From contig WHTP01000008.1 in NCBI GenBank assembly GCA_009377695.1, positions 1 to 64,000 on the forward strand: a stretch of DNA of 64,000 nt, given 5' to 3'. This DNA is from Hyphomicrobiales bacterium (lineage in GTDB: Bacteria; Pseudomonadota; Alphaproteobacteria; Rhizobiales; Xanthobacteraceae). Under the pieces are notes generated by a model. It saw nothing but the letters and a program-made list of their open reading frames with translations, did not search any database and was not told where the DNA came from. Both the position numbers and the translations under genes were made by a program. The stretch's first letter is position 1. Every line of letters starts with the position of its first letter. Below are positions 11,729-61,379 of the stretch, one piece after another.

Positions 11729-13360
11729 TTTCAGTACAGAAGTATGAACACCGAACGCCGCCGATTGTACGCTTGAAGCGGCGACCAGGGTGCGCAGCAG
11801 CTCCGACTTCGATCCCATGATGCGGACCTCCGTGTCGGCAACCTCGACACGCTGCGCGAGGGCGCGCAGGTGGTCACGGCGGTATCCGCCATTGTCGAGT
11901 CGCATCCGCTCACGAGCCCTGCGGGCAAACGTCTTGAGCATGTCCGGGCTGACGGCTTGGCTGCCGGTGCTGTCGAGCGCGACTTGCGTGCGCTCGGCGT
12001 CGGCTTTGGCCTGATCCCGCACCGCCTGAAGGCCGGCGATGCGCTCTTTCGCTACCGGATCGTCCTTATCGACCATGCCGGATTCGATTGCGTCATAGAG
12101 GCGGCCGAGCCGCTGGTCGGTATCGGTGATGCGCCTGTGAAGTTCGGCAAGGTGCTCACGGCGGCGCTCAGTGCGCTCCTCTCGGCGGTCGATGACGCTG
12201 GCAAGGATGGTCTCCAGTCGCTTGGGCTGGAGTAAACGATCCTCGATATGGTCGCCCACCAGACGGTCGAGCCTGTCCATCGGAATGGTGCGGCCCTTGC
12301 AGCCGGTCTTGCCCTGCCGCGCCTTGGTCGAGCAGGTGTAATAGCGATATGTGCCGCCCGCGCTGCCCCTGCCGGTGCGGAGCGTCATCGCGCCCCCGCA
12401 CTTGGCGCAGAAACAAATGCCGGTCAGGAGCGTAGGACCGCTCGAAATGCGAGCCGGAGTCACCATCGGATTGCGGGATTTGAGGCGAGCCTGCACAGCA
12501 TCGAACGTCTCGCGGTCGATCAGTGGCGGCACGGCCATGACCGCGTGCTCGGCTTCGGGCTTCCTTTCCCGATCCTTGTGGGAGCGCGTGTTGAATCGGT
12601 GCTCGCCGATATAGGTCGTGCGGGTCAGAATGGCGTGGATTTGCGCGAGGCCCCAGCGCCCGCCGTCGCGGGTGAAAATGCGGCGCTCATTGAGGTGACA
12701 GGTGATAGCCTTGACGCCCAACGTGCCCGAGGTGCCGTCACCTTCGAGGAACAGACGATAGATCAGCCGCACCGTATCCGCGTGCAGCGGGTCGATCTCA
12801 AGTTTCTTCTTGGTCTTCGATCCGCGCTGCTCGGCAGCGACGATGCGATAACCGATCGGCGGCAAGGCACCGTTCCAGAAGCCTTGCCTTGCATTCTCGT
12901 TCATGGCGCGCAGGACGTGCTTGGCGTTTTCCTTCGACTGATACTCGTCGAACAGCGCCATGACCTGCCGCATCATGACGTGCATGGGATCGTCGCCCAT
13001 CTCCTGCGTGATGGAGACGAGCTTGACGCCGTTCTTCGCCAGCTTGCGAACGTAGAACTCCAGTTCGAAGTGATCGCGGAAGAAGCGCGAGAAGCTGTGG
13101 ACCACGACGACATCGAACAGCGCGGGCTTGGACGTACCCGCTTCGATCATGCGCTGGAACTCGGGGCGCTTGTCGTTGGTGGCCGAGGCCCCTGCCTCAA
13201 CGAAGGTTTCGACAAGCCGGTAGCCGCGCGCTGCGCACCAAGCTTCACCCTGCCTGCGCTGGTCGGGGATCGAGACGTCATGCTCGGCCTGGCGTGTCGT
13301 GGAGACACGCAAATAGAGCGCGGCGCGCAGGGTGACATTATTAGTGTTGTGAATGTTCAT
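11684..13360 (-). CDS. Large serine recombinase (resolvase + recombinase + zinc-ribbon domains)
   Basis: AALYLRVSTTRQAEHDVSIPDQRRQGEAWCAARGY..VVVVHSFSRFFRD..GYRIV..LLTGICFCAKCGGAMTLRTGRG..YYTCSTKARQGKTGCKGRTI; C-terminal RARRDSNSRPPDS is antisense of the tRNA fragment. Confidence 0.92.
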   Translation of the reverse strand: MNIHNTNNVTLRAALYLRVSTTRQAEHDVSIPDQRRQGEAWCAARGYRLVETFVEAGASATNDKRPEFQRMIEAGTSKPALFDVVVVHSFSRFFRDHFELEFYVRKLAKNGVKLVSITQEMGDDPMHVMMRQVMALFDEYQSKENAKHVLRAMNENARQGFWNGALPPIGYRIVAAEQRGSKTKKKLEIDPLHADTVRLIYRLFLEGDGTSGTLGVKAITCHLNERRIFTRDGGRWGLAQIHAILTRTTYIGEHRFNTRSHKDRERKPEAEHAVMAVPPLIDRETFDAVQARLKSRNPMVTPARISSGPTLLTGICFCAKCGGAMTLRTGRGSAGGTYRYYTCSTKARQGKTGCKGRTIPMDRLDRLVGDHIEDRLLQPKRLETILASVIDRREERTERRREHLAELHRRITDTDQRLGRLYDAIESGMVDKDDPVAKERIAGLQAVRDQAKADAERTQVALDSTGSQAVSPDMLKTFARRARERMRLDNGGYRRDHLRALAQRVEVADTEVRIMGSKSELLRTLVAASSVQSAAFGVHTSVLKWRARRDSNSRPPDS

Positions 13361-14486: not shown

Positions 14487-14740
14487 GATGAGGGCGGGGC
14501 TTTGGGAGCAGTTTGACCGGTAGCACCGCGCCGCGCCTTTGCAAATCCTCGATCTGTTGCCACGAAGCGTTCCAGCATCGGCACGATCAGTTTCACCGGC
14601 TCTATCGGCTTCTGGCTTCCATCTGCGAGCAGGCGTCCGTAAATCTCCAGATCCCTGAACAGCGGCGCCGGCAATTCGAGCGTCACTTTCACGGGCTTGT
14701 CGTTTTCGATGGGGCCGAGTTTCAGCTTGGTCATTGTCAT
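14483..14740 (-). CDS. DUF2274 domain-containing protein
   Basis: MTMTKLKLGPIENDKPVKVTLELPAPLFRDLEIYGRLLA..; usual position after trbI in ICEs. Confidence 0.8.
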   Translation of the reverse strand: MTMTKLKLGPIENDKPVKVTLELPAPLFRDLEIYGRLLADGSQKPIEPVKLIVPMLERFVATDRGFAKARRGATGQTAPKAPPSS

Positions 14741-15894
14741 CCCTTGTAAGGTTCGAGGACCAAATCACGCGTCACGACGATCCTGACCGGGAAGCCCGGC
14801 CGGATGGTCAGCGTCGGTGGGACGTTGAGCTGGCGGCGGATGATCTGCTGGCCAGCATCGTTGATGGTGTCCTGGCCGCCGTTGCGGATGGCGCGCAACA
14901 GCCGATCCTCGTCATTGATCGCAAGCTCCGCTCCAACGGAGAGCAGTGTCGAGAGGCCAGCCGCCTTGGCGAGATCCCACCAATGATAATCGACGCCATC
15001 TTCAAGACCGGCATAGCCTGCGGTGTCCGCGCCGGGCTGGCGTTCCAGCACGATGGAGCGACCGTTGGGCAGGATCAGGCGATTCCAGACGAGCAGCACG
15101 CGGCGCTGCCCGAACTGCACGTTGTTATCGTACTGACCGATAATCCGTGTGCCCTGCGGCACAAGCAGGATGCGGCCGGTGGGGCTGTCATAGATGTTCT
15201 CCGTCACCTGCGCGGTGATCTGGCCGGGCAGATCGGAGCGGATGCCGGTGATCAGTGCTGCCGGAATGACGGCCCCGGCCTGGAGCACGAAGGGCGAGGC
15301 CGGCGGCATGACGCGATCCGATGAAGTCGTGCGGCGATCGACGGCGGCGTTGAGGAAAGCGAGTTGCTTGTCCTGCGCGGTCTGCTGAGCAGGTTGGCCG
15401 CTCAGGTCGAAGCCGGCGAGATTCTGCATTGTCGTGCTACCGCCCGGCGTTGCGGCCGTCGCCGTATTGCCCGGAGCGGTCTGGAAGAAGACGCGCGACG
15501 TGCGGGCAGCCTCTTCCTCAGCCCGCCGGCGCTGCTCGGCTTCATCGACCGTGGGGGTCTTGATGGCCGGCGGCACGACGGGCTGGCCCCTGTTTTGTGC
15601 ATCGAGGATGGGACGGCCGAGATCGCCGGGGAGCGGCGGGCCGAGGACCGGGCCGGTATAGTCGCGCGGCAGGCCCGCAAGACCGTCGGCGGGTTGCCGG
15701 TTGGTGGTGGAATAAAGCTCCTTGCCGTCATCGCCGGGCACGCGTGTCTGGAGCGCGTAGATCAGCGCCCCGCCGACGCCGAGTGACGCGACGACGCCGA
15801 TGCCGGCAAGCATCTTGCGCGAGAGACGCGTGACGCGCGGCGGCGCGGCGTGAAGCCGCATCGGGGGCACGGTGTTGGTTTGGTTCTGGCTCAT
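14737..15894 (-). CDS. trbI: Conjugal transfer protein TrbI (VirB10-like)
   Basis: VLQAGAVIPAALITGIRSDLPGQITAQVTENIYDSPTGRILLVPQGTRIIGQYDNNVQFGQRRVLLVWNRLILPNGRSI. Confidence 0.94.
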   Translation of the reverse strand: MSQNQTNTVPPMRLHAAPPRVTRLSRKMLAGIGVVASLGVGGALIYALQTRVPGDDGKELYSTTNRQPADGLAGLPRDYTGPVLGPPLPGDLGRPILDAQNRGQPVVPPAIKTPTVDEAEQRRRAEEEAARTSRVFFQTAPGNTATAATPGGSTTMQNLAGFDLSGQPAQQTAQDKQLAFLNAAVDRRTTSSDRVMPPASPFVLQAGAVIPAALITGIRSDLPGQITAQVTENIYDSPTGRILLVPQGTRIIGQYDNNVQFGQRRVLLVWNRLILPNGRSIVLERQPGADTAGYAGLEDGVDYHWWDLAKAAGLSTLLSVGAELAINDEDRLLRAIRNGGQDTINDAGQQIIRRQLNVPPTLTIRPGFPVRIVVTRDLVLEPYKG

Positions 15895-25339: not shown

Positions 25340-27349
25340 TCAAAGCTCGATGCCATCGGCCGGGTCCAACGACGCCTGCCGCGCGACCACGCGCATGCGT
25401 TGGCGCATGGCCCGCGCCTTGGCGGCGTCGACATCGGGCTCGTCGTCCAACAGGTCGAATTCCTGCTCGGGCGGGCGCGGCGGCGCGACGATGTCCTCAT
25501 GCTCGGGCAATTCCGGCTCGCGGCGAATGCCGGCATTGGCGGGATCGCCCTCTGTCCCGCCGGCGGGCGTCGCGTGGGTCTTTCCCGACGCCGCCACCAC
25601 GCGGTTGGACCAGTCGTCGGATGACGGTTGCGGCGCTGCGGTGTTAGCCGCGGCCAGCTCGGGCGGCGGCAGGATGCGTTCCTGAAAGCGCTTGTCCTCG
25701 TAATAGCGGACCTTGGCGGCGCGGATCGGCGGCGTGCCCGCCACCATGACGATCTCGTCGGTGGGCGGAAGCTGCATGATCTCGCCGGGCGTCAGCAACG
25801 GCCGCGCGGTTTCCTGCCGCGACACCATGAGATGGCCGAGCCAGGGCGCAAGCCTATGACCGGCATAGTTGGTGGAATCGCGCATCTCGGTCGCCGTGCC
25901 GAGCGCATCGCTGACTCTTTTGGCCGTGCGCTCATCGTTCGTCGCGAAGGCGACGCGGACATGGCAATTGTCGAGAATGGCGTTGTTCTGCCCATAGGCG
26001 CGCTCGATCTGATTGAGGCTCTGCGCGATCAAAAAGCTTTTGAGCCCGTAGCCGGCCATGAAGGCGAGCGCCGATTCAAAGAAGTCCAGACGGCCAAGCG
26101 CAGGAAACTCGTCGAGCATCAGCAACAGGCGATGGCGCTTGCCGGAGGTCTTCAGTTCTTCAGTCAGCCGTCGGCCGATCTGGTTGAGGATCAGGCGAAT
26201 GAGCGGCTTGGTGCGGTTGATGTCGGACGGCGGCACGACGAGGTAGAGGCTGACCGGCTGGCGGCTTCCAACCAGATCGGCAATGCGCCAGTCGCAGCGC
26301 GCCGTGACGCGCGCGACGACCGGATCGCGGTAGAGGCCGAGGAACGACATGGCGGTGCTCAGGACGCCCGACCGCTCATTATCGCTCTTGTTGAGCAGCT
26401 CGCGCGCGGACGAGGCGATGACGGGATGAACGCCGGCGTCGCCAAGATGCGGCGTGTCCATCATCGCGCGCAACGTCGCTTCCACCGGGCGGCGCGGATC
26501 GGACAGGAAATTGGCGACGCCCGCCAGCGTCTTGTCAGGCTCCGCGTAGAGAACGTGCAGGATCGCGCCGACCAGCAGCGAATGGCTGGTCTTTTCCCAA
26601 TGGTTGCGCTTGTCCAGGCTGCCTTCAGGATCGACGAGAATGTCTGCGATATTCTGCACGTCGCGGACTTCCCATTCACCCTGCCGCACCTCCAACAGCG
26701 GGTTGTAGGCCGACGACTTGGCGTTGGTCGGATCGAACAGCAGGATGCGGCCGTGCTTCGCCCGGAAGCCCGCCGTCAGCGTCCAGTTCTCTCCCTTGAT
26801 GTCGTGAACAATGCAGCTTCCCGGCCAGGTCAGCAGCGTCGGTACCACGAGGCCGACGCCCTTGCCACTTCGGGTCGGCGCGAAGCACAACACATGCTCC
26901 GGTCCGTCATGACGCAGGTAGTCTTGGGTATGTCGGCCAAGCACGACGCCATCGGGACCGAGCAGGCCGGCGGCGCGGATTTCCTTGTCTTCGGCCCATC
27001 GTGCGGAGCCGTAGGTGGCGACGTTGCGCGCCTCGCGTGCGCGCATGATCGACATCAGGATAGCGACGGCGATGGCGATGACGCCGCCCGATGCGGCGAT
27101 GATGCCGCCTTCAACGAAGATCGTCGGCGCGTAGGCGTCGAAGGAGAACCACCACCAGAAGAAGACCGGCGGGTAGTAGATCGGCCAGCCGGCCAGCTCG
27201 AACCATGGATTGCCGAGCTGCGCCTGAAAGCCGAGCCGCCAGGCGGTCCATTGCGTCGCCGCCCATGTCGTCACCAGAACGATGATGAAGACGACGGCGA
27301 TCTGACCCCAAAGGATTCGGCCTCCACGCATATTGGCTCCAATCGGCAA
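25340..27349 (-). CDS. traG: Type IV coupling protein TraG/VirD4
   Basis: LRHDGPEHVLCFAPTRSGKGVGLVVPTLLTWPGSCIVHDIKGENW..LLLMLDEFPALGRLDFFESALAFMAGYGLKSFLIAQSLNQI. Confidence 0.96.
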   Translation of the reverse strand: MPIGANMRGGRILWGQIAVVFIIVLVTTWAATQWTAWRLGFQAQLGNPWFELAGWPIYYPPVFFWWWFSFDAYAPTIFVEGGIIAASGGVIAIAVAILMSIMRAREARNVATYGSARWAEDKEIRAAGLLGPDGVVLGRHTQDYLRHDGPEHVLCFAPTRSGKGVGLVVPTLLTWPGSCIVHDIKGENWTLTAGFRAKHGRILLFDPTNAKSSAYNPLLEVRQGEWEVRDVQNIADILVDPEGSLDKRNHWEKTSHSLLVGAILHVLYAEPDKTLAGVANFLSDPRRPVEATLRAMMDTPHLGDAGVHPVIASSARELLNKSDNERSGVLSTAMSFLGLYRDPVVARVTARCDWRIADLVGSRQPVSLYLVVPPSDINRTKPLIRLILNQIGRRLTEELKTSGKRHRLLLMLDEFPALGRLDFFESALAFMAGYGLKSFLIAQSLNQIERAYGQNNAILDNCHVRVAFATNDERTAKRVSDALGTATEMRDSTNYAGHRLAPWLGHLMVSRQETARPLLTPGEIMQLPPTDEIVMVAGTPPIRAAKVRYYEDKRFQERILPPPELAAANTAAPQPSSDDWSNRVVAASGKTHATPAGGTEGDPANAGIRREPELPEHEDIVAPPRPPEQEFDLLDDEPDVDAAKARAMRQRMRVVARQASLDPADGIEL

Positions 27350-27514: not shown

Positions 27515-28405
27515 TCAGTCCGCCCGGACCGACCGGCTCATTTCGCCGGCGAGATCGAGCAAGTTCCTTAGCGCGGCGTTGCGGTTGTATGGCGACCAGA
27601 CGGCCGAGAAGGCGACCGGCTCCGGCTCGTCCGCGAACGGTAAGAAGACCACGCCGGAGGTCGGTAGCAGCGACGTGGCCGCCCCGACGATGGTGATGCC
27701 GAATCCCTGTCCGACCATGGAAAGCAAGGTGCCGCGCTCGACATCGAAGCGTTGGATTGAGGACACGGGCCAGCGCCCAGCGAGGCGCAGCACGATATGG
27801 TCATGAACCTGTGGCCCCGTGCCGCCATAGCGGACAAGGAACGTCTCTCCCGCCAGATCGGCCCAAGTAACTGTAGAGCGCCCGGTGAGCGGATGCCGAT
27901 CTGGCAGCGCGGCCAAGAGTGGTTCGGTCCATATCCGCCGGGAATGGCAGTCGGGAGGCTCGGGCGCTCCCGCCGCGAACGCAACGTCGATGCGCTCGGT
28001 GCGTATTTGTGTGAGCGCGTCGCGGGCAGTGCCTTCCGTGATCTCCACCTCAATGCACGGATAGTCTTTCCGGTATTGTCCGATCAGCTCCGCGAGGAAA
28101 CTGCGAGGGATCAAGGCATGGACACCAATGCGCAGACGGCCGCATTCCCCTGATGCCGCCATGCCGGCTGTCTTTACGGCGTAGTCGAGCTGGTCGATGC
28201 CGACCGCCACCCGCTCCACGAAGTACCTACCGGCTTCCGTCAGCCGAACGCCCCGTGCGTGGCGCTCGAACAGGAGGATGCCAAGGTCTTCCTCCAGCGT
28301 CTTTACACGGGCACTAACACTGGACTGACTGACGCCTAACGCATTCGCTGCGTGGCGGAAGTTCAGATATTCAGCGACGGCGAGCGTCTGAATGAGTGAC
28401 GCCAT
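27515..28405 (-). CDS. LysR family transcriptional regulator (position resembles 'traR' of Tn4371-like ICEs)
   Basis: MASLIQTLAVAEYLNFRHAANALGVSQSSVSARVKTLEEDLGILLFERHARGVRLTEAG. Confidence 0.88.
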   Translation of the reverse strand: MASLIQTLAVAEYLNFRHAANALGVSQSSVSARVKTLEEDLGILLFERHARGVRLTEAGRYFVERVAVGIDQLDYAVKTAGMAASGECGRLRIGVHALIPRSFLAELIGQYRKDYPCIEVEITEGTARDALTQIRTERIDVAFAAGAPEPPDCHSRRIWTEPLLAALPDRHPLTGRSTVTWADLAGETFLVRYGGTGPQVHDHIVLRLAGRWPVSSIQRFDVERGTLLSMVGQGFGITIVGAATSLLPTSGVVFLPFADEPEPVAFSAVWSPYNRNAALRNLLDLAGEMSRSVRAD

Positions 28406-28524
28406 CGGAATGCGACCGCGCAACAGTGGTGGCGCAGGTAGTGACCGAAGCTCCTTTCGCAGTTTCCGACGACGCATTTCTTCACCAGCTAGGACGCCGT
28501 AAGCGAGCGGACGGCGCCACCCCT

Positions 28525-29979
28525 TTAACGGGAAGACGGCAGGCCGAGAGCCTTAGCGACGCCTGCGCCGTAAGCTGGATCGGCGGCGGTGCAGTTTTCT
28601 ACATGCCGCTGTTTCACCTCCAGGCGAGCATCACCCATGGCCCGCGCCGTGTTTTCAAACAGTAACTGCTGCTGTTCGGGGTTCATCTTACGGAAGAGAT
28701 TTCCCGGCTGCTCAAAATGATCCTCGTCCTCGCGATGATCCCAATGTGCGGCGACACCTTCCAGTTCGAGCGGCGGCTCGGTCAGCGAGGGATCATGGTC
28801 GATCCACGCCCCCTTGCGATTGGGCCAGTAACTCGGCGTCGCGCCAAGATTGTCGTCGGTGCGCATCGCACCATCCCGATGATAGCTATGGACAGGACAG
28901 CGCGGTGCATTGACCGGAATGTGGTTGAAATTAACGCCCAATCGGTAGCGTTGGGTGTCTCCGTAGGAGAAGAGCCGCGCCTGCAACATTCTGTCGGGCG
29001 AGAAGCCGATGCCTGGCACGATGTTCGCCGGCGAGAAAGCCGCTTGCTCCACTTCGGCGAAGTAATTGTCGGGATAGCGGTTGAGTTCAAACGCGCCAAC
29101 CTCGATCAGCGGATAATCTGCCTTCGGCCACACCTTGGTGAGATCAAAAGGATTGAGCCGGTGGGCTTTGGCGTGCGCGTCTGTCATCACCTGAATGAAA
29201 AGCGTCCAACGCGGGAAATCACCACGCTCGATCGCATCGAGCAGATCGCGACCATGAGTTTCCCGATCGTTCGCGACCAGGGCGGCCGCCTCTTGATCGG
29301 TCAAATTCTCGATGCCCTGCTGGGTGCGGTAATGGAACTTGACCCAAACTCGCTCACTGGCCGCATTTACCATCGAGAATGTATGGCTGCCAAAGCCGTG
29401 CATGTGCCGGAAACTCTTCGGAATCCCGCGATCCGACATGACGATCGTAACTTGGTGAAGCGCTTCCGGGAGAAGCGACCAGAAATCCCAATTATTGTCC
29501 GCGGAGCGCAAACCCGTGCGGGGGTCGCGCTTGACGGCGTGATTGAGATCGGGGAAGCGTAACGGATCGCGGAAGAAGAACACCGGCGTATTATTGCCGA
29601 CGAGATCCCAATTGCCTTCTTTCGTGTAGAACTTGAGAGCGAAGCCCCTGATGTCGCGCTCCGCGTCGGCAGCTCCACGCTCGCCGGCGACGGTTGAAAA
29701 GCGCACAAACATCGGAGTGGTTTTTCCAATCTCGGCGAAAATCTTGGCCTTGGTATATCGCGTGATGTCGTGGGTCACAGTGAAGGTGCCATAGGCACCC
29801 CAACCTTTGGCGTGCATCCGCCTCTCGGGGATTACCTCCCGGTCGAAGTGGGCAAACTTCTCGATCAGCCATATGTCCTGGAGAAGCGCAGGGCCTCGCC
29901 GGCCAGCGGTCAATGTGTTGAGGTTATCGGCCACGGGAGCACCCGTAGCGTGTGTCATCGGTGGAATCGGGTTCTTCAT
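28525..29979 (-). CDS. katA: Monofunctional heme catalase (clade 3-like KatA)
   Basis: [128 protein letters not shown] (Tyr ligand). An upstream in-frame start at 30027 overlaps the hemA stop. Confidence 0.96.
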
Positions 29980-30023
29980 GGCAGTGTTTCCTTCTGTTTG
30001 ATGCTTTCTGGGTTCGTCGGATT

Positions 30024-31289
30024 TCATTGAGACAGCGCGCGCGGAAGTCTAAGGCCGCCGCCTACAGGCAACTCCCAAGTGGAAATCAGAGCCTCTACGA
30101 ATACCGTTTCATCGGCAGGTGTATGATGCGGGTGTGGGGTTATGCGCAGACGCTCGGTGCCGCGTGGAACGGTCGGATAATTGATCGGCTGCACATAGAT
30201 GCCCCACGACTTCATCAACTCGTCGGTGACAAGCTTTGCAAGCCCGGCATCTCCGATCATCAGTGGCAGGATGTGACTGGGGCTGTCCAAAACCGGCAGA
30301 CCTGCCCCGAGGAGCTTCGCCTTGACTGACGCTACCCGCTGCTGGAGTGCTTGGCGCTCGTTTCCACTGGTCTTGAGATGTCGAACGGCGGCGCGAACGC
30401 CCGCGACCGTCGCAGGCGGCAAAGCGGTGCTGAATATGAAGCCTGGCGCATGGCTTCGGATGAAATCAACGAGTTCAGCATTCGCAGCGATATAACCGCC
30501 GATACCGCCGAAGCCCTTGCTCAGTGTGCCTTGAATAATGTCTATCTTGTGCATCTGTCCGGTCGCCTCGGCAAAGCCACCGCCGTGCGGCCCGTAGAGG
30601 CCCACGCTATGCACCTCGTCGAGATAGGTCAGCGCGCCATAGCGATCGGCTAGGTCGCAAATGGCGGCGATCGGGGAGAAATCGCCGTCCATCGAATAGC
30701 AGCTCTCGAAGCAGATGATCTTGGGGCGGCCCGCACCGATGGTCCGCAATTGCCGTTCCAAGTCCTCGACATCATTATGTCGGAACAGCCTTTTCTCGGT
30801 GCCCGAGCGCCGAATACCCTCAATCATCGACGCATGGTTGAGGGCGTCCGAGAGCAAAACGCAGTCGGGAAGGATTCGACCTAACGTCGAAAGCGCCGCA
30901 TCGTTGGCGACAAAGCCGGACGTAAAGACAAGTGCGGCCTGCTTCCCGTGCAGGTCGGCAAGCTCCTGCTCAAGCTTCACATGCTCATTGCTGGTGCCGG
31001 AAATGTTGCGCGTTCCACCAGCTCCAGCCCCATAGGTGTCGAGCGCCTGTGCGGCTGCCGAGAGCACATCGGGATGAACGCTCATGCCTAAATAGTCGTT
31101 CGAACACCAAACCGTCACCTCCCGCCCGATCCGGTGATCGAAGGCGCGGATTGGATTACGCCAGTGGCGCTCAAGGTTGGCGAAGACCCGGTAGCGCTCT
31201 TCGAGCTGGAGCGCTCTAAGCGAGCTTGCGAAGAAGGATTGGTAGTCGAAGGTGTTTGTTTCTTGTTTCAGATCTTGTGTCACGGTCAT
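30024..31289 (-). CDS. hemA: 5-aminolevulinate synthase
   Basis: [105 protein letters not shown]. Confidence 0.95.
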
Positions 31290-32089
31290 CACCTAGCTAG
31301 TAGCTTCATTTCTTCAGCGCCGGCCTCCCTCGTGCGCTCCAGCACTTGGTATGTGCGCTCAACTGCATTGCGCAGCGCAGTCGTCACTGTGCTCCCTTTC
31401 GCCAGATGTGCGGCAACAAGGCCCGTGAGGAGATCACCTGTGCCGCATGGGCGGATCGGCAGACGCGTCGTTGCAATGCGTGTTAGTGCCCCAGCCTCAC
31501 AGAGAACGGTCTCGACCTGACCAGATGGCGTGTCGTCCAGCGCACATCCGGTCACGATTACTGTCGGGCAGCCGCTGTCAGTGATGATCTCGCTGGCCGC
31601 AAGAAGGCTGTCTGCATTTCGCGCAGTCTTTCGGCTCAGAAGCTCCAACTCGAACTGATTGGGCGTGATAAGCGACGCGAGCGGCACCAACCAATCACGG
31701 AATATCTCCGTCATGCCGTCGGCAACAAAAACCCCAAGATCGTCATCGCCCATAACGGGATCGCAGAGGTAAACAAGGCTCCGGTTCTGCTTCTGGGCTG
31801 CCTCGATGAAGCGAGCGACGCACTCGGCAATAGCTGGTGAACCTAGATAGCCGGTAACGAGCACGGCGGCCCGCTCGACAAGGCCGCGCTCCTCGACGCC
31901 GCGCAGAAGGTCAGCGACAAGTGGAGCCTCGAGCACCGTCCCACGCATGGTTGGATAGTGAGGATGGTTGGAGAGCAGCGCGGTGGGAACCGCGGCGACA
32001 GTGACGCCCTCGGCCTGCATGGGATAAACCGCTGCGCTGTTGCCGACATGGCCGTGAACGACCTGGCTCTGGATGGAGATGACCAGCAT
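31289..32089 (-). CDS. pdxY: Pyridoxal kinase (PdxY-like)
   Basis: [95 protein letters not shown]. Confidence 0.95.
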
Positions 32090-32859
32090 CAGTCAGCTCC
32101 CGCCGCGCCCGGCCAATAGTGAGAATCAGGCAGAGGCCGGGGACCGAAGACGGCCTGCCCGACGCGCACGATGGTAGCGCCTTCCTCGATCGCCCATTCA
32201 TAATCGCCCGACATGCCCATCGACAGGTCGGCGAGCATCGCGCCCTGCGGTGCGTCGTTCAGCGCGCGATCGCGAATCTCGCGTAGCACGCGGAAGCAGC
32301 GACGCACCTCGGCCTCATCCGGGGTGAAGGTGGCGAGCGTCATGAACCCTTTGGGCCGCAGCGCGTCGAAGGCCGGCAATTCGTTGAGAAAGGCAAGCAC
32401 CTCGTCGGGAGCCAGGCCGTATTTGCTGGCTTCGCCCGACGTGTTGACCTGCACGAGCACATCGAGGCCGCGCCCAAGATGCTGAAGTCGCTTTTCGAGC
32501 GTTGTCGCCAGCGACAGGCGGTCCAACGACTGCACCTCCGAAGCGAAACGCAGCAGCTCCTTGGCTTTGTTGCTCTGGAGATGACCGATCATCGACCAGC
32601 GGACAGGCTCGCCCGAAAGCGCTTCGGCCTTTCCAAGCCCTTCCTGTACCTTGTTCTCACCGAGATCGGCCGCACCCGCACGCACCGCCTCCAGCACGCG
32701 CTCGGGCGCGACAGTCTTGGTTACGAGCACAAAGCGAACGGCATCGGGCGACCGGCCCGACCGCCGGCTGGCGTCAGCGATCTTGCCACGGACAGTCGAG
32801 AGATTCGCCGCAACGTCAGACAAGGCCGGCTCTCTCATTCGGCAAGTCCTTCCAGCCAC
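32089..32859 (-). CDS. YggS/PLPBP-family pyridoxal phosphate homeostasis protein
   Basis: VRFVLVTKTVAPERVLEAVRAGAADLGENKVQEGLGKAEALSGEPVRWSMIGHLQSNKAKELLRFASEVQSLDRLSLA..VLVQVNTSGEASKYGLAPDEV..LADLSMGMSGDYEWAIEEGATIVRVGQAVFG. Confidence 0.95.
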   Translation of the reverse strand: MAGRTCRMREPALSDVAANLSTVRGKIADASRRSGRSPDAVRFVLVTKTVAPERVLEAVRAGAADLGENKVQEGLGKAEALSGEPVRWSMIGHLQSNKAKELLRFASEVQSLDRLSLATTLEKRLQHLGRGLDVLVQVNTSGEASKYGLAPDEVLAFLNELPAFDALRPKGFMTLATFTPDEAEVRRCFRVLREIRDRALNDAPQGAMLADLSMGMSGDYEWAIEEGATIVRVGQAVFGPRPLPDSHYWPGAAGAD

Positions 32860-33560
32860 TCGTTCAGCATTCTGCGCGACGCATCGCGTAGGGCCGGGCC
32901 GAAGCGTGCCGCCTCGTCGCGCAAGTTGCGCGGATCAATGCCTGCAGCGGAAAGCTCGACGGCATGCCCCACCAGCCAGCGCTCGATCCCGGCGCAAGCA
33001 TCGACTTCCGGGTGAAACTGAAGTCCGAGCACATTGCGGCCTAGCGCAAAACCTTGCGTCGTGCAGAGCGACGTTGTGGCAAGGTTCTCCGCTCCTTCGG
33101 GGATGTGGAAGGAGTCCCCATGCCAATGCAACACTGAGACGCCTTCCAGATGCCGTAGCGGCCCAACCCGCCCGGCATCGGTCAAGGTCAGCTTGGAGAA
33201 GCCGATCTCCTTGATTCCCGTCGCCGCCACCTTCGCGCCAAGAGTTGCAGCAATCTGTTGGGCGCCCAGGCAGATGCCCAGTGTTGGCCGGTTGGCTGCG
33301 AGCCTCGCCTCCAGAATCTGCCTTTCTTCGGTGAGAAAGGGATAGACGTCCTCCTCATAGACTCCGACCGGACCACCGAGGACGACGAGGAGGTTGGCCA
33401 GCGGCGGATCGAGCGTCCACAGTTCATGCGCGCCCAAATCGTAGTAGTAGACCCTGTAACCGGCCGCCGTGAACACCGCCTCAAAGGTTCCAAGGTCCTC
33501 GAAGTGGATATGCCGGATGACGACCGCTGTTTTCAGCGTGGCGGGGGCTCCTCTCGACAT
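32835..33560 (-). CDS. Class I glutamine amidotransferase-like protein
   Basis: LLVVLGGPVGVYEEDVYPFLTEERQILEARLAANRPTLGICLGAQQIAATLGAKVA..GLQFHPEVDACAGIERWLV. Confidence 0.88.
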   Translation of the reverse strand: MSRGAPATLKTAVVIRHIHFEDLGTFEAVFTAAGYRVYYYDLGAHELWTLDPPLANLLVVLGGPVGVYEEDVYPFLTEERQILEARLAANRPTLGICLGAQQIAATLGAKVAATGIKEIGFSKLTLTDAGRVGPLRHLEGVSVLHWHGDSFHIPEGAENLATTSLCTTQGFALGRNVLGLQFHPEVDACAGIERWLVGHAVELSAAGIDPRNLRDEAARFGPALRDASRRMLNEWLEGLAE

Positions 33561-33630
33561 GGCCGGTCACTTTCCTGAGCTATCGGCCCAGCGGATTGCC
33601 ACGGCCTTCTGACTGTGCAATATCGTTGAT

Positions 33631-33675
33631 CCGGCCTATCTTGAAGGGCCAGTTTCGAGAAACTGGATAGGCCGG
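33631..33675. promoter_or_regulatory. Nested inverted repeats in the divergent GATase operon / pdxR intergenic region
   Basis: CCGGCCTATC (33631-33640) with GATAGGCCGG (33666-33675) enclosing CCAGTTTC-GA-GAAACTGG (33649-33666); all arms perfect. Confidence 0.7.
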
Positions 33676-35120
33676 TGAGAGTGCAAAACGAAATTGCGAT
33701 CGAGTTGGCTGGAGACGGCAAGCAGCCAGTCTTCCTTGAAATCGCGACATCCATCATTCGTGAGATTGAACGCGGGCGTCTGAAGCCGGGGGATGCGCTC
33801 CCCGGAACTCGCGCACTCGCCAGCAGTCTCAAAGTGCATCGGAATACGGTCGATGCCGCTTTTCATGAACTGACGATGCAGGGTTGGCTCGTGGCGAAGC
33901 CATCGCGCGGCACCTTCGTGGCAAGCGACTTGCCGGACGTCCGTTCAGCGAACCGCCGCACCCGCAGCCGAAGTGGTGAGGGAAGACTGCGGACCGGAAA
34001 GGCAGCGCCCCCCTTGCTGCACGTATCGGATGGCTCTCCAGACCCCAGGGAAATGCCGCGCGCCGCATTGGCGCGTGCGTTCCGTCGGGCACTGTCCACG
34101 CCCGCCTTTCTGGCAAATGGGAGCTACGGCGATCCACGGGGCGCGATCTCGCTGCGAACCGCGCTGGCCGACTATCTGGTTCAAGATCGGGGGCTCCCAG
34201 TATCGCCTGACGAGGTGCTGGTGACGCGCGGGAGCCAGATGGGCTTGTTCTTGGCCGCAACCGCGATTCTGGAGCCGGGCCAAACGATCGCAGTAGAGGA
34301 ACCAGGCTATCCGCTCGCCTGGGCGGCGTTCCGTGCCGCCAGAGCACGGGTAGTCGGCGTGCCGGTCGATGCACAAGGCATTGACGTCAGCAAGCTCGCA
34401 GCCCTCGCGGAACGTGAGCCAACGCTGAAAGCGATATATGTGACGCCGCATCACCAGTATCCGACGACTGTGACGCTCGGGGCAGGCCGCCGCCTCAAAC
34501 TCCTCGATCTCGCACGGCGTTACCGCCTGACCATCATCGAAGATGACTACGACCACGAATACAGATTCGAAGGTCGTCCGATCCTTCCGCTCGCCGCGCG
34601 CACCGACGCAGACGGCTCTACGATCTATATCGGCTCGTTATCCAAGCTGCTCGCGCCTGCTGTACGAGTCGGCTACGCGGTCGCGTCACCGGAAATCCTG
34701 ACCCGCATGGTTGATCGGCGCGAGGCGATCGACCGTCAGGGTGATCTTCCGCTCGAACAGGCGCTGGCCAATCTCATTGAGGAAGGCGAGCTTCGCCGTC
34801 ACGCCCGCAAGGCCCGACGCATCTATGCGGCTCGGCGAGACTTTTTGGCCAATGAGATTCATCGTGGTCTGGGCGATGATGTGGTCTTCAACATGCCTGC
34901 CGGCGGACTCGCAATCTGGCTCCGCCTAAGTGCTGGCCTCAACGCGGAAACGTGGTCCTCCAATGCTGCTCGCGCTGGTCTGTCGATTGCGCCCGGCCTG
35001 CGCTTCGCGCTTGATGCTGCGAACGCGACACAAGCCTTCAGGATCGGATATGCGAACCTGGATGAGAGCGACCTGAAGCGGGTTATTGCCATACTCATTC
35101 GCACCCGACCTCGCCGATAG
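33675..35120 (+). CDS. pdxR: MocR-family (GntR HTH + aminotransferase-like) transcriptional regulator, PdxR-type
   Basis: IATSIIREIERGRLKPGDALPGTRALASSLKVHRNTVDAAFHELTMQGWLVAKPSRGTFV; IEDDYDHEYRFEGRPILPLAARTDADGSTIYIGSLSKLLAPAVRVGY (PLP lysine). Confidence 0.93.
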   Translation: MRVQNEIAIELAGDGKQPVFLEIATSIIREIERGRLKPGDALPGTRALASSLKVHRNTVDAAFHELTMQGWLVAKPSRGTFVASDLPDVRSANRRTRSRSGEGRLRTGKAAPPLLHVSDGSPDPREMPRAALARAFRRALSTPAFLANGSYGDPRGAISLRTALADYLVQDRGLPVSPDEVLVTRGSQMGLFLAATAILEPGQTIAVEEPGYPLAWAAFRAARARVVGVPVDAQGIDVSKLAALAEREPTLKAIYVTPHHQYPTTVTLGAGRRLKLLDLARRYRLTIIEDDYDHEYRFEGRPILPLAARTDADGSTIYIGSLSKLLAPAVRVGYAVASPEILTRMVDRREAIDRQGDLPLEQALANLIEEGELRRHARKARRIYAARRDFLANEIHRGLGDDVVFNMPAGGLAIWLRLSAGLNAETWSSNAARAGLSIAPGLRFALDAANATQAFRIGYANLDESDLKRVIAILIRTRPRR

Positions 35121-35263
35121 TCACGGACCACAAGGCGCCTGATGCGGGCGACGCACAGTCCGCAATCTCGCTGGGGTCAAGGGGATTGGCTAGTAGGCTG
35201 CGGGCGATCTGCCTCAGAAGAGCGGAATCTGCCCGCATCGCCGCAAGCTCGCTTGACATATAC

Positions 35264-35276
35264 TTAGGAGTCCTAA
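35264..35276. promoter_or_regulatory. Palindromic operator candidate TTAGGA-G-TCCTAA
   Basis: Perfect inverted repeat just downstream of TTGACA (35253-35258) and 11 bp before the MarR start at 35288. Confidence 0.6.
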
Positions 35277-35287
35277 ATGATGGCGTC

Positions 35288-35962
35288 ATGGATCACGCTT
35301 CTACATCTGACCCGCTCATCATCCGCTTGCGCGAAGGCTTCGACCGGATTGCCTTTGTGCTCCGCGCCGACCTGTGGACGGCTGCGGGTGACGCCGGGCT
35401 GAACCCCACTCAGGCGCAGGTTCTCGGTCTCCTTGCCGGCCGACCGGCCGGATTGAGGCCCAAAGAGATCGCTGCCCATCACGCTGTCTCCGCAGCGAGC
35501 ATTGCAGACACTTTGGGCGCTCTCGTCCGCAAGGGGCTTGTATGGCGCGATACCGATCCCAGCGATGCGCGGGCAGCGATCGTGCGTGCGACACCCGATG
35601 GCCTCCATCTTGGCGCGGAAATCGCCCAGGCAACCTCTCAGGTCGCGGATGCGCTGGCGGCGCTGCCGCTCGCCGCCCAGGAGGAGTTGCTGCTGACCCA
35701 AATTGCTCTCATTCGGCAGTTGCAGATCGCCGGCGCTATCCCGCTCCAGCGCATGTGTGTCTCCTGCCGTCATTTCCGGCCGCACGCCCATCCGCACGCG
35801 GCAAAGCCCCATCACTGCGCTTTTGTGGACGCCGCCATCGGTGGCCGGGACCTCCGGCTCGATTGCGGTGAGCACGAAGCGGCTGATCCTGTCGTTCAGG
35901 CTGCCACCTGGACGACCTTCGCCAAAGGATCGCCGACCCTCCAAGCCCAACCATCAACCTGA
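35288..35962 (+). CDS. MarR-family regulator with Cys/His-rich C-terminal tail
   Basis: LNPTQAQVLGLLAGRPAGLRPKEIAAHHAVSAASIADTLGALVRKGLVWRDTDPSDARAAIV; tail CVSCRHFRPHAHPHAAKPHHCAFVDAAIGGRDLRLDCGEHE. Confidence 0.82.
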   Translation: MDHASTSDPLIIRLREGFDRIAFVLRADLWTAAGDAGLNPTQAQVLGLLAGRPAGLRPKEIAAHHAVSAASIADTLGALVRKGLVWRDTDPSDARAAIVRATPDGLHLGAEIAQATSQVADALAALPLAAQEELLLTQIALIRQLQIAGAIPLQRMCVSCRHFRPHAHPHAAKPHHCAFVDAAIGGRDLRLDCGEHEAADPVVQAATWTTFAKGSPTLQAQPST

Positions 35963-35978
35963 GAAGGAGAACACCATC

Positions 35979-36698
35979 ATGAAAATCACGAATCCACGAG
36001 GCTTTGGCCTCGTGGCTGCGGCGCTGTGCTTCGTCTCGGCCAGCGCATCCGCGCACGAGATCAAGACGCCCAGCAATCAGGCGGTCATGGCCTCGTTCGA
36101 CATCGTCGAAACGCGCATCGTGACCGATCATGGCCACGCCATCTTTCGCACACGCGTCCGGGCCGCTGCCGGAAAGGTAACGCCGAAGGCCACAGGGAAG
36201 TTCGAGGGGTCCGAAGTCTACGCCTATGTCTGGCCGACTACGCTCAACTCCTGGGATGTCGGCTTCGAGAGGGACCAGGGCATCGTCGCCCTTGCCGTAA
36301 CCTTCCATCCCGACTTCGACGACGCGGCGTATGGCGGGAAGAACCGCGACCGCTGGCACCCGCACTGGGTCGTTCTCAGCGAGGACAAGGCTTGCCCTGG
36401 CGGCCTCAAGGTCAGGGATATTCCCAAGGGCACGAAGCCCAGGCTTCCGGAGACCTGGCCCGGCGCGCCGATCCTGATTGACAGTCCCGAATACAAGACC
36501 GAGCTGGCCGCCGATGTCGTCGAGGTCCACATTCCCCTCGACAAGCTCGGCGCGGTCGCGACCGCTTCGTTCGACGGCGTGACCGCCGGTCTCAAGGTCA
36601 ACGCCAACCTCCATACGCCGCTTCTGTGCGTCTCTGACGTCTTCAAAGTTGCATCCGGCAACCTGTCGCTGCCGGGCAAGGTCGTTCCCGGCAAATGA
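35979..36698 (+). CDS. Hypothetical secreted protein
   Basis: MKITNPRGFGLVAAALCFVSASASAHEIKTPSNQAVMASFDIVETRIVTDHGHAIFRTRV; signal peptide; RBS gaaggag upstream. Confidence 0.65.
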   Translation: MKITNPRGFGLVAAALCFVSASASAHEIKTPSNQAVMASFDIVETRIVTDHGHAIFRTRVRAAAGKVTPKATGKFEGSEVYAYVWPTTLNSWDVGFERDQGIVALAVTFHPDFDDAAYGGKNRDRWHPHWVVLSEDKACPGGLKVRDIPKGTKPRLPETWPGAPILIDSPEYKTELAADVVEVHIPLDKLGAVATASFDGVTAGLKVNANLHTPLLCVSDVFKVASGNLSLPGKVVPGK

Positions 36699-36712
36699 CG
36701 CCGGAACATGAA

Positions 36713-36744
36713 AGCGGCCCGACGACTGCCATCGTCGGACCGCT
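36713..36744 (+). terminator. Hairpin after secreted protein gene
   Basis: AGCGG-c-CCGACGA ctgcca TCGTCGG-a-CCGCT. Confidence 0.5.
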
Positions 36745-36785
36745 CCGAAAATCCCCCTCCAAGCATCAGAGAAGGAGAATTTACT

Positions 36786-37331
36786 ATGGCACACGTCAAC
36801 CTCATTGATCCAGCCTCGTCTTCCGCCGCGGTCAAGCCGACACTCGACAAGATCAACGGCGCCTTCGGTGTTGTTCCGAATATGTTCAAGGCGGTAGCGA
36901 ACTCGCCGGCTGCGCTGAACAGCATGTGGGGCTCGTTCGGCGCTCTTGCCGGCGGCAAGCTCGGCGCGCGGCTGGGCGAGGAGATCGCCGTGGCGATCGC
37001 CAACGCCAACCACTGCGAATACTGCCTGGCTGCGCACACGGCCCTGGGCCGCAAGGCGGGCGCCTCGGCCGACGAGATCGCGGCGGCGCAGGTCGGCCAG
37101 TCCTCCGATCCCCGCACTCAGGCGGCGCTCACCTTCGCACTGAAGATCGTACGCGACCGTGCGGCCGTCACCGATGCCGACGTCACCGCTCTGAAGGCGG
37201 CCGGCTTCGACGGTGAAGGCGTCGTCGAGATCATCGCCCACGTCGCGCTCAACCTCTTCACCAACTACGTCAACGTGGCGCTGAACGTCCCGGTCGATTT
37301 CCCGGCCGTCCAGTTGAAGCGCGTGGCGTGA
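36786..37331 (+). CDS. Carboxymuconolactone decarboxylase / AhpD-like family protein
   Basis: MAHVNLIDPASSSAAVKPTLDKINGAFGVVPNMFKAVANSPAALNSMW..ANANHCEYCLAAHTALGRKAG (CxxC-xxxH motif). Confidence 0.88.
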   Translation: MAHVNLIDPASSSAAVKPTLDKINGAFGVVPNMFKAVANSPAALNSMWGSFGALAGGKLGARLGEEIAVAIANANHCEYCLAAHTALGRKAGASADEIAAAQVGQSSDPRTQAALTFALKIVRDRAAVTDADVTALKAAGFDGEGVVEIIAHVALNLFTNYVNVALNVPVDFPAVQLKRVA

Positions 37332-37334
37332 TCC

Positions 37335-37374
37335 AAATGGTGCCGGGCTTTCCTCGGAGAGCCCGGCACCATTT
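37335..37374 (+). terminator. Strong intrinsic-type terminator hairpin
   Basis: AAATGGTGCCGGGCT ...AGCCCGGCACCATTT: 15-bp perfect stem followed by T-rich sequence. Confidence 0.75.
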
Positions 37375-37433
37375 TCAAATGAGCCCGCCGAGACCAGTTC
37401 CCCGGCTTTCGTGGCTAGCTATCGGAGGTGCTG

Positions 37434-37913
37434 ATGAGCACACATCCACGCCATCACATTCAAGCACCGGCTTCCGGTTGGGTCCGCAACGCCGCAATGC
37501 CGCTCCTAAGCGCAGCGCTACTTTCGGCGTCTGCGCTTCCGACCCCGGCTACTGCAGCGGACCCCCAGAGCTTGGTCGAGGCGCTTAAGACAGTCGCCGG
37601 CAATCCGCCCGGGGTGCGCGCCACCTTTGCCAAGGGTCAGTGCGTGCGCGGCACCTACACGCCCGCAGACGACGTCGGACAGGTGAAGCGCTCAGTCAGT
37701 TTCACACGGTCATGGCCCGCCATTGGCCGTTTCTCGGTCGGCGGCGGCAATCCGTCCGTTCCGGACACTGCCAAGAATGTTCTGCGCGGCTTTTCGATCA
37801 ATATCCTGTCGGACGGCGGTGCCACGCATCTGCTCTTCGAGAATGCGCCGGTGCATTTCGCGAATGCTGGGGTTTCTGCGTGTCCGCGCCCCGGGGTGAT
37901 CGCAATCGCTTGA
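37434..37913 (+). pseudogene. Catalase-related peroxidase (SrpA-like) N-terminal remnant
   Basis: LVEALKTVAGNPPGVRATFAKGQCVRGTYTPADDVGQVKRSVSFTRSWPAIGRFSVGGGNPSVPDTAKNVLRGFSINI..LLFENAPVHFA, then MLGFLRVRAPG in another frame; the heme-ligand C-terminal half is absent. Confidence 0.65.
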
Positions 37914-37962
37914 CGTGTGGCGGTGTCGCCGCCGGCATCGACTTCAGCGTGGGTGGAGAGCC

Positions 37963-38418
37963 ATGACTGAGGCTACAGACGAACGTCGGAAACGCTTGGC
38001 CCCCGGCACGGCGGCAGGGGTCACTGAGGCGATGATAGATGCGCAGGTTCGGGTCTTCTACGCCAAGGTTCAACGCGACCCGGCCCTCGGCCCCATATTC
38101 TCGCGTGTCGTCGATGACTGGGAGCCTCACCTTCTGCGTATGGTCGATTTTTGGTCGTCGGTACTGCTGATGAGCGGGCGCTACAAGGGAAATCCCGTCG
38201 CTAAGCACGCCCCGCTCGATCTTCGCCCGACGCACTTCGCGCGTTGGCTCCATCTCTTCGCAGAGACCGCAAGCGAGATTTGCCCGCTGCAGGCGGCCGA
38301 TCTGTTCCGGCAAAAGGCGGCAATGATCGCAGAAAGTTTGCAACTGGCTGCGGCGGTTGCGCGCGGCGAGTTACCGACTCAATCGGATCACATCACAAAA
38401 CAGCGACCACAGAAATGA
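37963..38418 (+). CDS. Group III truncated hemoglobin
   Basis: VTEAMIDAQVRVFYAKVQRDPALGPIFSRVVDDWEPHLLRMVDFWSSVLLMSGRYKGNPVAKHAPLDLRPTHFARWLHLFAETA. Confidence 0.85.
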   Translation: MTEATDERRKRLAPGTAAGVTEAMIDAQVRVFYAKVQRDPALGPIFSRVVDDWEPHLLRMVDFWSSVLLMSGRYKGNPVAKHAPLDLRPTHFARWLHLFAETASEICPLQAADLFRQKAAMIAESLQLAAAVARGELPTQSDHITKQRPQK

Positions 38419-38466: not shown

Positions 38467-40518
38467 CTACATCTCGATCCCCCTGTTCCGTCCCAATTGC
38501 CACGATACCGATCCGCCCTGCACAATGCCCATGACCTCCCGGCCGAGCTGACGGTCAATGACGGGTCGCCAAGGGACGAGGGTGAACTCATGCGCCTGCT
38601 CGACCATGGCGAACTTGCCGCTCGATAGCTGGACGGTTCCGGTGAACTTGCCGCTGATGATCTCACCGCCGGCGACCGCGCGGAAGGACATCGCCTTGCT
38701 CGCGGCCATCTCCGCGCCAACGCGGGCAACTTCGCGTTCGCGCAGGGTTGCGAGGAGATTGCGCCTATAGAAGATTCGGCCATTGCGTTGGCGCGTGGCG
38801 TCGCCCTGGTCGATATGATGCTCCTGCCGCCGCTCCACGGCGTCGCGCACCTGCTGGCCGAAACCGGCTGACGCGAGATCCGATGCGTCGCCCGACACAA
38901 GCCGCCGGTCGAGCCAGGTCGCGCCGTCCGCGCCGATCTGCTTTTCCAGATCGAAGGCGGAAAGGATACGAAAGCTGGCCTGCCGATTGCGGCCGGCATC
39001 GTAGGCGGCGGCGCGGCTCTCGAAGTCCTCGGGGATGCGCCATTGGTCGGCGTCGATCCGCTCGACGATGCCGGCGCGGCGCAACGCCTCCAGCCGGCGG
39101 ACATGGGCATCGACATAGCCCTCATAGTCGCCACCCGGAACGCGGCCCTCGAACTTCGCCTGCTCCAGATGGCGGCTCGGCCGATAGATACCATCCTCGG
39201 CGACGGCCGCAATTGTGCGGTCGGATGGGCGGCTCGCGGTGTCGGCCGGGCCGATCTCGATGACGCTGCCGATCCGTGCGTCCTCGACGCGGGCCGGGTC
39301 GATGCCGGCGACATGGTGCGTCCGGCCGTCGATGCCGTCCACCACGACGGTCAGGTTCTCGCCCAGCTCGACGGACAGATATTTGTCCACGACGCGGCCG
39401 ACGATGGGCGTCTCGGGAGCGACGTCGTGGATCTGGAAGGTCATGGGATCGCGCTCCAGGCCATCGGCCTTCAGCGCCTTGTGCATGGAACGAATGATGT
39501 CGCCGCGCTCGGCCAACTCGCGCAGGGCCGGTTCCATCCGCTCGCTCAACTCCCAAACGCCCGGTGCGTGTTCGGTGGCCAGCCCCATCTTCTCCAGCTT
39601 GGCGAGACGGTGCAGGCGCAGCGCGCGGTTGAACTGGCGCTTATGGTCGGCGGGCTCATGGCGCAGGTCGAGGAAGCGGCCATCAGCTTCCTCGGTCATC
39701 GCCCGGTCGATACGGGTAAAACGGTCCTGGTCGATCTCGGCCGAGAGCTTGCGCGTCTGCTCGATCTCGGTCACGGGGCCGAGCTCGAGCGTCGCAAGCT
39801 CGCTCGCCCGCTCGCGGATGCCGTTGGCGAGATAGTCGCCGTTGATGACAAGGTTCTCGCCCAGATCGTTCTTGCCCCGGACGATGACATGCACATGGGG
39901 ATGGCCGGTGTTGTAGTGGTTTACCGCCACCCAATCGAGCTTGGTGCCAAGGTCGGCTTCGATCCGGCTCATGAGGTCGCGGGTATGCGCGGTCAGGTCG
40001 GTCAAGTCCGCGCCGTCCTCCGGCGAGACGATGAACCGGAACTGGTGGCGATCCTCCTTGCCGCGCTCAAGGAAGGCGTCGCCATCCGCGCGGCCCTCGG
40101 TCGCGGAATAGAGCTGGCCGCGCTCGCCGTTGCGGGACGTTCCGTCGCGCTGGATGTAGCGCAGATGCGCGGCGGCCTTGCCATTCCTGCCGGCATTCTG
40201 GACATAGCGCGTCTTGACGACGGCGCGGCGCATGCCGAGTGCGCTGTGATGCCAGCCGCCTGACAGGGTGCGGGAGCGGACGAAGGCCGCGCCACGCCCG
40301 CGCCGGACGCCCGGTCCCTTGGTCGAGCGCGCGCCCTTGCCGCCCTTTGCGGCCGGGCTCTTGCCTGGGCGCGGCGACGATCTGGACGGGGCGGCGCTAT
40401 GCTGCCGTGCGATCTTCTTCGCCTTAGTGAAGAAGCTCTGGACTTTGCCCGTTCGCGGCGTGTCAGAGCCGATGCGGCCGGGCTTCGGCCGAAAGCGGTT
40501 TTCGTCGTCGGCGCTCAT
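38467..40518 (-). CDS. Relaxase/mobilization nuclease with DUF3363 C-terminus (VirD2-like)
   Basis: MSADDENRFRPKPGRIGSDTPRTGKVQSFFTKAKKIARQ..AAAHLRYIQRDGTSRNGERGQLYSA..HQFRFIVSPEDGADLTDLTAHTRDLMSRIEADLGTKLDWVAVNHYNTGHPHVHVIVRGKND. Confidence 0.93.
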   Translation of the reverse strand: MSADDENRFRPKPGRIGSDTPRTGKVQSFFTKAKKIARQHSAAPSRSSPRPGKSPAAKGGKGARSTKGPGVRRGRGAAFVRSRTLSGGWHHSALGMRRAVVKTRYVQNAGRNGKAAAHLRYIQRDGTSRNGERGQLYSATEGRADGDAFLERGKEDRHQFRFIVSPEDGADLTDLTAHTRDLMSRIEADLGTKLDWVAVNHYNTGHPHVHVIVRGKNDLGENLVINGDYLANGIRERASELATLELGPVTEIEQTRKLSAEIDQDRFTRIDRAMTEEADGRFLDLRHEPADHKRQFNRALRLHRLAKLEKMGLATEHAPGVWELSERMEPALRELAERGDIIRSMHKALKADGLERDPMTFQIHDVAPETPIVGRVVDKYLSVELGENLTVVVDGIDGRTHHVAGIDPARVEDARIGSVIEIGPADTASRPSDRTIAAVAEDGIYRPSRHLEQAKFEGRVPGGDYEGYVDAHVRRLEALRRAGIVERIDADQWRIPEDFESRAAAYDAGRNRQASFRILSAFDLEKQIGADGATWLDRRLVSGDASDLASAGFGQQVRDAVERRQEHHIDQGDATRQRNGRIFYRRNLLATLREREVARVGAEMAASKAMSFRAVAGGEIISGKFTGTVQLSSGKFAMVEQAHEFTLVPWRPVIDRQLGREVMGIVQGGSVSWQLGRNRGIEM

Positions 40519-40684
40519 GGCCGCGCCTCCGGCCGAAATTGCCGAAAATCGGGCGTTCGGCGGCCATGGTGCCGGCCGAAACCCAGCAAGGCCAGGGCTT
40601 TGCGCAAGATCGCGGCACGCAGGGTCCAAAACCATGGTGCCGCTCGCGGCTCACCTAAACAGTGTGCAGACAGCAACAATTTCA

Positions 40685-61377: not shown

Positions 61378-61379
61378 GG

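Follow-up and report, generated by a model that had tools for sequence, protein, structure and literature searches.

A 64,000-nucleotide stretch of a Hyphomicrobiales bacterium genome (GCA_009377695.1; 5.85 Mb, 95% complete), comprising positions 1-64,000 of contig WHTP01000008.1 and referred to here as the window, carries a Tn4371-like integrative and conjugative element (ICE). All coordinates are window positions unless a locus is named. The cargo between the relaxase and traG genes of this element is probably a mobile PdxR regulon, devoted to pyridoxal 5'-phosphate (PLP), that lost the serine hydroxymethyltransferase (SHMT) gene glyA, kept a 5-aminolevulinate synthase (ALAS) gene and acquired a catalase gene, with the cargo oriented toward the transfer genes.

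The six-gene set and its operator

A sequence-only reading of the window had described six genes at 28525-35120, and profile searches recovered all six open reading frames in place with strong full-length family matches. The plus-strand gene at 33675-35120 encodes a PdxR-type MocR regulator. In line with that reading, which named a PdxR-type regulator with an intact PLP lysine, the protein passes the curated PdxR model (NF052282, 362.5 bits; cut-off, 320 bits) and retains the PLP lysine of the SLSK motif, with IYIGSLSKLLAPAVRVGY aligned to IYLGTFSKILAPGFRIGW of PDB 1x0m. Divergent from mocR, the minus strand encodes a class I glutamine amidotransferase (GATase) of the PRK07053 family (32835-33560; 311 bits; cut-off, 250), a YggS-family PLP homeostasis protein (32089-32859; TIGR00044, 169 bits; cut-off, 106.25), the pyridoxal kinase PdxY (31289-32089; TIGR00687, 205 bits; cut-off, 144.5), an ALAS of a PdxR-associated clade (30024-31292; TIGR01821, 593 bits; cut-off, 338.55) and a monofunctional heme catalase (28525-30027; PF00199, 2e-188; 822 bits to PDB 2isa by phmmer).

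Alignment to solved structures revealed intact Cys and His-Glu motifs in the GATase (9xfs), an intact GTGD motif in PdxY (PDB 2ddm) and intact ALAS motifs (7x98), and the PLP-lysine region of YggS aligned to YggS-family structures (3cpg). Both the catalytic His region and the proximal Tyr region of the catalase aligned to 2isa, and by this alignment the enzyme appears functional; codon 17 is an alternative possible start. The tight minus-strand operon proposed earlier is borne out by overlaps of 1 to 25 bp between neighboring genes: 4 bp for catalase and ALAS, 4 bp for ALAS and pdxY, 1 bp for pdxY and yggS, and, for yggS and the GATase gene, 25 bp with the listed yggS start or 4 bp (ATGA) with a start at 32838, which is probably the true one.

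The interval between the GATase gene and mocR contains a putative MocR operator that was absent from the earlier reading. This near-palindromic site of 43 bp (33632-33674) consists of CGGCCTATC and GATAGGCCG flanking CCAGTTTCTCGAAACTGG. Its gapped pattern has a single occurrence in the host genome, and relatives have related repeat-containing sites at the same place, between mocR and their GATase operon. The operon divergent from mocR holds the PLP salvage genes pdxY and yggS, and its position and the operator suggest that it is controlled by MocR.

A recurring PLP arm and the loss of glyA

The PdxY sequence was searched against genome contigs, the best 80 loci were kept, and their neighborhoods were compared. 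A PLP arm in which mocR diverges from GATase-glyA-yggS-pdxY, without catalase, was found in Xanthobacter sp. NM-59 (L012), a member of the same family as the host, in a metagenome-assembled genome labelled Salinicola (L013), in Sphingomonas (L066), in Brevundimonas (L071) and on the conjugative Agrobacterium plasmid pAtl-11c (L092). Locus L074 carries a more diverged version of the arm, and L123 carries MocR-GATase-glyA-yggS. A short thioredoxin-like gene precedes the GATase gene in L012, L071, L074 and L092. The arms of L012 and L013 are probably ICE-borne, because trb-type genes lie alongside them. The MocR gene adjoining the L012 arm is in pieces; a second set of MocR, thioredoxin-like and GATase genes, followed by a short yggS remnant, lies beside that arm (12868-15319 of L012).

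In relatives, a glyA gene of 422 codons stands between the GATase gene and yggS. It is the constant partner of the PLP arm and carries no peroxide logic. The window instead has the GATase stop fused to a short remnant immediately upstream of yggS (32835-32860, minus strand). Because the stretch following this stop resembles the final bases ahead of yggS in L066, the window glyA is best read as deleted. Predicted members of PdxR regulons include pdxK, BioF-family and ArgD-family genes, GlyA, COG325, a GuaA-family amidotransferase and BenE (Suvorova and Rodionov 2016, PMC5320631); since its gene content matches this list, the PLP arm is of a predicted, known kind.

The pairing of pdxY with ALAS, a part of the earlier proposal, is supported by its recurrence. 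A pdxY gene followed by ALAS was found in three other loci, intact in L012 and in G909, which came from a family-level search, and as a 5'-truncated remnant of some 100 codons in L092. In G909, a PdxR regulator scoring 401.8 bits against the cut-off of 320 adjoins a run of BenE-pdxY-ALAS-ArgD-type genes on one side and glyA and yggS on the other. The three intact ALAS sequences, from the window, L012 and G909, formed one clade in the tree (support, 100/99), separate from both host ALAS copies and from other plasmid ALAS genes. No catalase gene was found near ALAS in L012, L092 or G909.

Host copies of the same functions

The host genome contains two further ALAS genes above the cut-off (C211 and C89), a katG gene (C12) and one more YggS. 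Neither another pyridoxal kinase above the cut-off nor another full-length monofunctional catalase was found in this 95%-complete genome. Given this gene complement, the ICE adds an otherwise undetected pyridoxal kinase and catalase, but not a missing ALAS. The possibility that the ICE encodes the recipient's only ALAS was rejected in view of the two host genes, and the possibility that the catalase is the cell's only peroxide enzyme was rejected in view of katG. Of the cofactor supply that the earlier proposal credited to the element, the ICE does carry ALAS and pdxY, but it provides only the first step of heme synthesis, to a recipient that already has ALAS and KatG.

Extra copies of such enzymes could also confer resistance to a PLP antagonist: a compound trapping PLP, SHMT or ALAS would be countered by additional copies of the two enzymes together with a resupply of PLP. 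Consistent with this explanation, SHMT and ALAS alike use glycine and depend on PLP, the genes are carried on mobile DNA, and an ALAS of the host's own is already present. However, no detoxifying enzyme or exporter was recognized in the PLP arm, and no description of such resistance was found in the literature examined, so that we consider it improbable.

The peroxide arm

Plus-strand genes at 35186-38418, which the earlier reading did not include, belong to the same cargo. They encode a MarR-family regulator with a Cys/His-rich C-terminus (35186-35962; Pfam MarR_2, 3e-10); p36, a probable exported protein with no Pfam match (35982-36698); an AhpD-like peroxidase-related enzyme (36708-37331; PF02627; TIGR01926, 87 bits against a cut-off of 81.8); a shortened catalase-family peroxidase of 161 amino acids (37428-37913), which matches the N-terminal half of a 313-amino-acid protein (14553-15494) of Rhizobium sp. 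SSA_523 plasmid pHM2 (L145); and a globin-like protein (37915-38418) with a weak PF01152 match, below the cut-off. Just after the AhpD-like gene lies a 40-bp inverted repeat (37335-37374), possibly a transcription end signal.

Relatives of p36 with 65-72% identity sit beside MarR on Rhizobiaceae plasmids, and MarR adjoins p36 in L126-L128, L186, L187 and L189. The p36 gene occurs widely, in 35 of the 398 genomes sampled from the order, and its neighbors often include MarR, TlpA-like and catalase genes. On a Rhizobium SL42 plasmid (L186) and a Pararhizobium qamdonense plasmid (L187), a catalase gene is followed by short-chain dehydrogenase/reductase, hypothetical, MarR and p36 genes, and then by an AhpD-like gene in the former and by TlpA, MOSC and truncated hemoglobin genes in the latter; the peroxide arm has no pdxY or ALAS in either. 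Shinella (L189) carries MarR-p36-redoxin-MOSC and, at a greater distance, a truncated hemoglobin of group III, annotated as a truncated hemoglobin like that of L187. Plasmid pHM2 carries superoxide dismutase-MarR, AhpD-like and p36 genes and a MocR gene divergent from GATase-LysR-catalase, followed by a catalase-family peroxidase gene, without pdxY, yggS, glyA or ALAS. In the window, the catalase gene lies to the left of mocR, and MarR-p36-AhpD-like, the peroxidase and the globin-like gene lie to its right. Because catalase accompanies MarR-p36 genes in the Rhizobiaceae plasmid loci, it was assigned to the peroxide arm, which it fits better than the PLP arm, though the window has it attached to the PLP operon.

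These loci bear on the earlier interpretation of the gene set as a self-provisioning peroxide defense. The cargo position, the PdxR regulator, the tight operon and the recurrence of pdxY with ALAS were all supported, and MocR-GATase does lie next to catalase in pHM2. Catalase as the purpose of the set was not supported: ALAS-pdxY recurs without catalase, and catalase-MocR-GATase recurs without ALAS or pdxY. A dedicated defense, in which pdxY, yggS and ALAS would supply heme for a co-transcribed catalase under PLP-sensing control, is possible but not favored, and we regard it as unlikely. It is suggested by the 4-bp overlap of catalase with ALAS, by the peroxide genes on both sides of mocR, by the joining of MocR-GATase with catalase in pHM2, and by precedents for the co-regulation of catalase and heme synthesis: in Bacillus, katA and hemAXCDBL are both under PerR control, and in Escherichia coli, OxyR induces hemF and hemH (PMC8115020). 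However, the two pairings recur separately and never together in the other loci examined; glyA, not catalase, is the constant partner; and a single, first heme step is supplied to a host with two other ALAS genes and katG. No peroxide-sensing regulator of the OxyR or PerR type was found at the locus, where a PdxR-type MocR is found instead.

Vitamin B6 might itself serve as an antioxidant, with PLP salvage and catalase acting jointly against reactive oxygen. Antioxidant activity of B6 vitamers has been described in other organisms, and peroxide genes flank mocR; however, such genes are missing from the surroundings of most PLP-arm loci, and this explanation appears very unlikely.

Recurrence of the complete set

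The GATase was searched in genome samples from the order (398), the class (385) and the family (399), ALAS was searched in the family genome sample, and plasmids were searched with the individual proteins and with the 5.1-kb operon. Absence of the six-gene set from other genomes had been named in advance as evidence against the earlier interpretation, and within the limits of these searches no second locus was found among the sampled genomes and plasmids. Catalase and ALAS were not found together elsewhere among the matches listed from the sampled genomes and plasmids, the surroundings having been read for part of these matches. No relatives of the GATase or ALAS were found in viral contigs, and a literature search found no ICE combining catalase, ALAS and pyridoxal kinase. 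The parts are thus individually known, and their exact combination was not found elsewhere in the sampled searches.

The ICE backbone and the LysR-traG slot

The proposed cargo position was confirmed: the genes occupy the relaxase-traG interval of an element with trb genes, RepA and ParA, as in Tn4371-like elements. The relaxase, RepA/ParA, traG and trb modules lie in order, and the same gene kinds are present in pPNAP01. The backbone includes a relaxase with DUF3363 (38467-40635, minus strand; PF11843, 3e-148) and the TraG coupling protein (25340-27349, minus strand), which is 85-90% identical to TraG of other elements. The region between relaxase and traG is a known variable region of Tn4371-like ICEs (PMC2789088).

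The slot between the cargo and traG is occupied by a LysR-family regulator (27515-28477, minus strand), likewise absent from the earlier reading. The gene is transcribed in the same direction as catalase, which ends 47 bp ahead of it, and a further 165 bp separates it from traG. LysRs that fill this slot in other elements share 72-81% identity with it: two immediately precede traG (L192 and L194), on Paracoccus and Enterobacter plasmids, and others follow floR or tet(G) in Tn4371-like contexts, one of them after tet(G) on a Pseudomonas plasmid. Identity to the LysR of the Tn4371-like pPNAP01 element is only 31.5%, and the best profile match, to AlsR (147 bits), is far below the cut-off; OxyR scored 90 bits. 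Judged from these relatives, this LysR is most likely part of the ICE backbone and not a catalase regulator. The latter role was rejected as the default, since its close relatives sit beside traG or resistance genes. Orthology to TraR was rejected on the 31.5% identity to the pPNAP01 LysR, which leaves a positional counterpart only. Because no traR ortholog precedes traG, the element is called Tn4371-like. A weak scan found no terminator-like site between catalase and LysR.

In L193 (NZ_CP029094.1, 287909-304808), three full or partial LysR copies, each followed by a DUF3363 relaxase-end fragment, alternate with floR and tet(G). These tandem copies suggest repeated insertion of units of relaxase end, cargo and LysR into the slot. 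Since the LysRs of L192 and L193 fall within the close LysR group of the window, the floR and tet(G) cassettes of resistance plasmids probably derive from a related relaxase-cargo-LysR-traG slot.

Such a slot raises the possibility of no functional link, with catalase and the MarR cluster simply stacked beside the PLP cargo in an insertion hot spot. The known variability of the region, the existence of each module alone and the repeated insertions in L193 are consistent with this explanation. However, catalase and ALAS share both a strand and 4 bp of sequence, leaving no gap, and pHM2 independently combines MocR-GATase with catalase and the p36 and AhpD-like genes. We hold mere stacking to be a tentative alternative, less probable than the mobile PdxR regulon. 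The two likelihoods are not exclusive, because both accounts accept the same anatomy and differ only on coupling.

Elsewhere in the window, a short open reading frame for an integrase with an Arm-DNA-binding domain (270 amino acids) lies beside a large serine recombinase gene at the trb end of the element (10689-13360). Genes for a copper-type P-ATPase, a DUF2189 protein, a FixP-like cytochrome c and a COX1-family oxidase, probably a cbb3 oxidase cluster, occupy 56971-63775.

Discussion

In the proposed model of a mobile PdxR regulon, MocR would bind the 43-bp site and, as expected for its family, tune one leftward operon to the PLP level. PdxY would make PLP from salvaged pyridoxal, and YggS would buffer it. 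The operon would express PLP-dependent enzymes, ancestrally SHMT from the glyA gene lost here, together with the ALAS clade that travels with pdxY. Catalase, at the operon end, would probably be transcribed from the same promoter, and ALAS and catalase may benefit from being coupled. The cargo would then be a mosaic of a PLP arm and a peroxide arm meeting at the MocR-GATase divergon, and its transcription could run into the transfer genes. In an extended form of this model, the PLP-controlled operon would make catalase, PLP and 5-aminolevulinate and read through 47 bp into the LysR-traG switch, such that PLP or peroxide stress would both protect the cell and trigger ICE transfer; we consider this extension doubtful.

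Several points weigh against the mobile-regulon model. ALAS could yet be part of a genuine peroxide function, given its 4-bp overlap with catalase and the AhpD-like and catalase-family genes close by. The published PdxR regulon is itself a prediction, and recent common descent could partly explain the conservation of the putative operator.

The analysis places a predicted PdxR regulon of pyridoxal kinase, YggS, GATase, SHMT and ALAS on mobile elements, which suggests a transferable benefit. It also links one ALAS clade with the control of vitamin B6 instead of general heme synthesis. As the cargo points toward the LysR-traG pair, the coupling of cargo and transfer described for one Tn4371-family ICE becomes testable with a metabolic cargo.

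The window resembles known systems in part. With the PdxR regulons (PMC5320631) it shares a PdxR above the cut-off, a pyridoxal kinase, YggS (COG325), a GuaA-type GATase, a BioF-family alpha-oxoamine synthase and a divergent operator with repeats; it differs in that glyA is lost, catalase is added and the set is ICE-borne. The Rhizobiaceae plasmid clusters L186, L187 and pHM2 likewise contain catalase, MarR and p36, with an AhpD-like gene in L186 and pHM2 and a truncated hemoglobin in L187. They have no pdxY or ALAS, however, and in the window catalase closes the PLP operon, across mocR from the other peroxide genes. The PerR and OxyR systems would be alike in regulating catalase jointly with a heme-synthesis gene, if the two are co-transcribed in the window, whereas the window has a regulator of the PLP type rather than the peroxide type and an ALAS, of the C4 route. 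Finally, cargo and the LysR gene traR share a transcript in one Tn4371-family ICE, where traR increases transfer (Matsumoto 2024, PMC11448139). The window shares with that element a relaxase-traG cargo transcribed toward a LysR that precedes traG, but its LysR, at 31.5% identity to that of pPNAP01, falls in the group linked to floR and tet(G).

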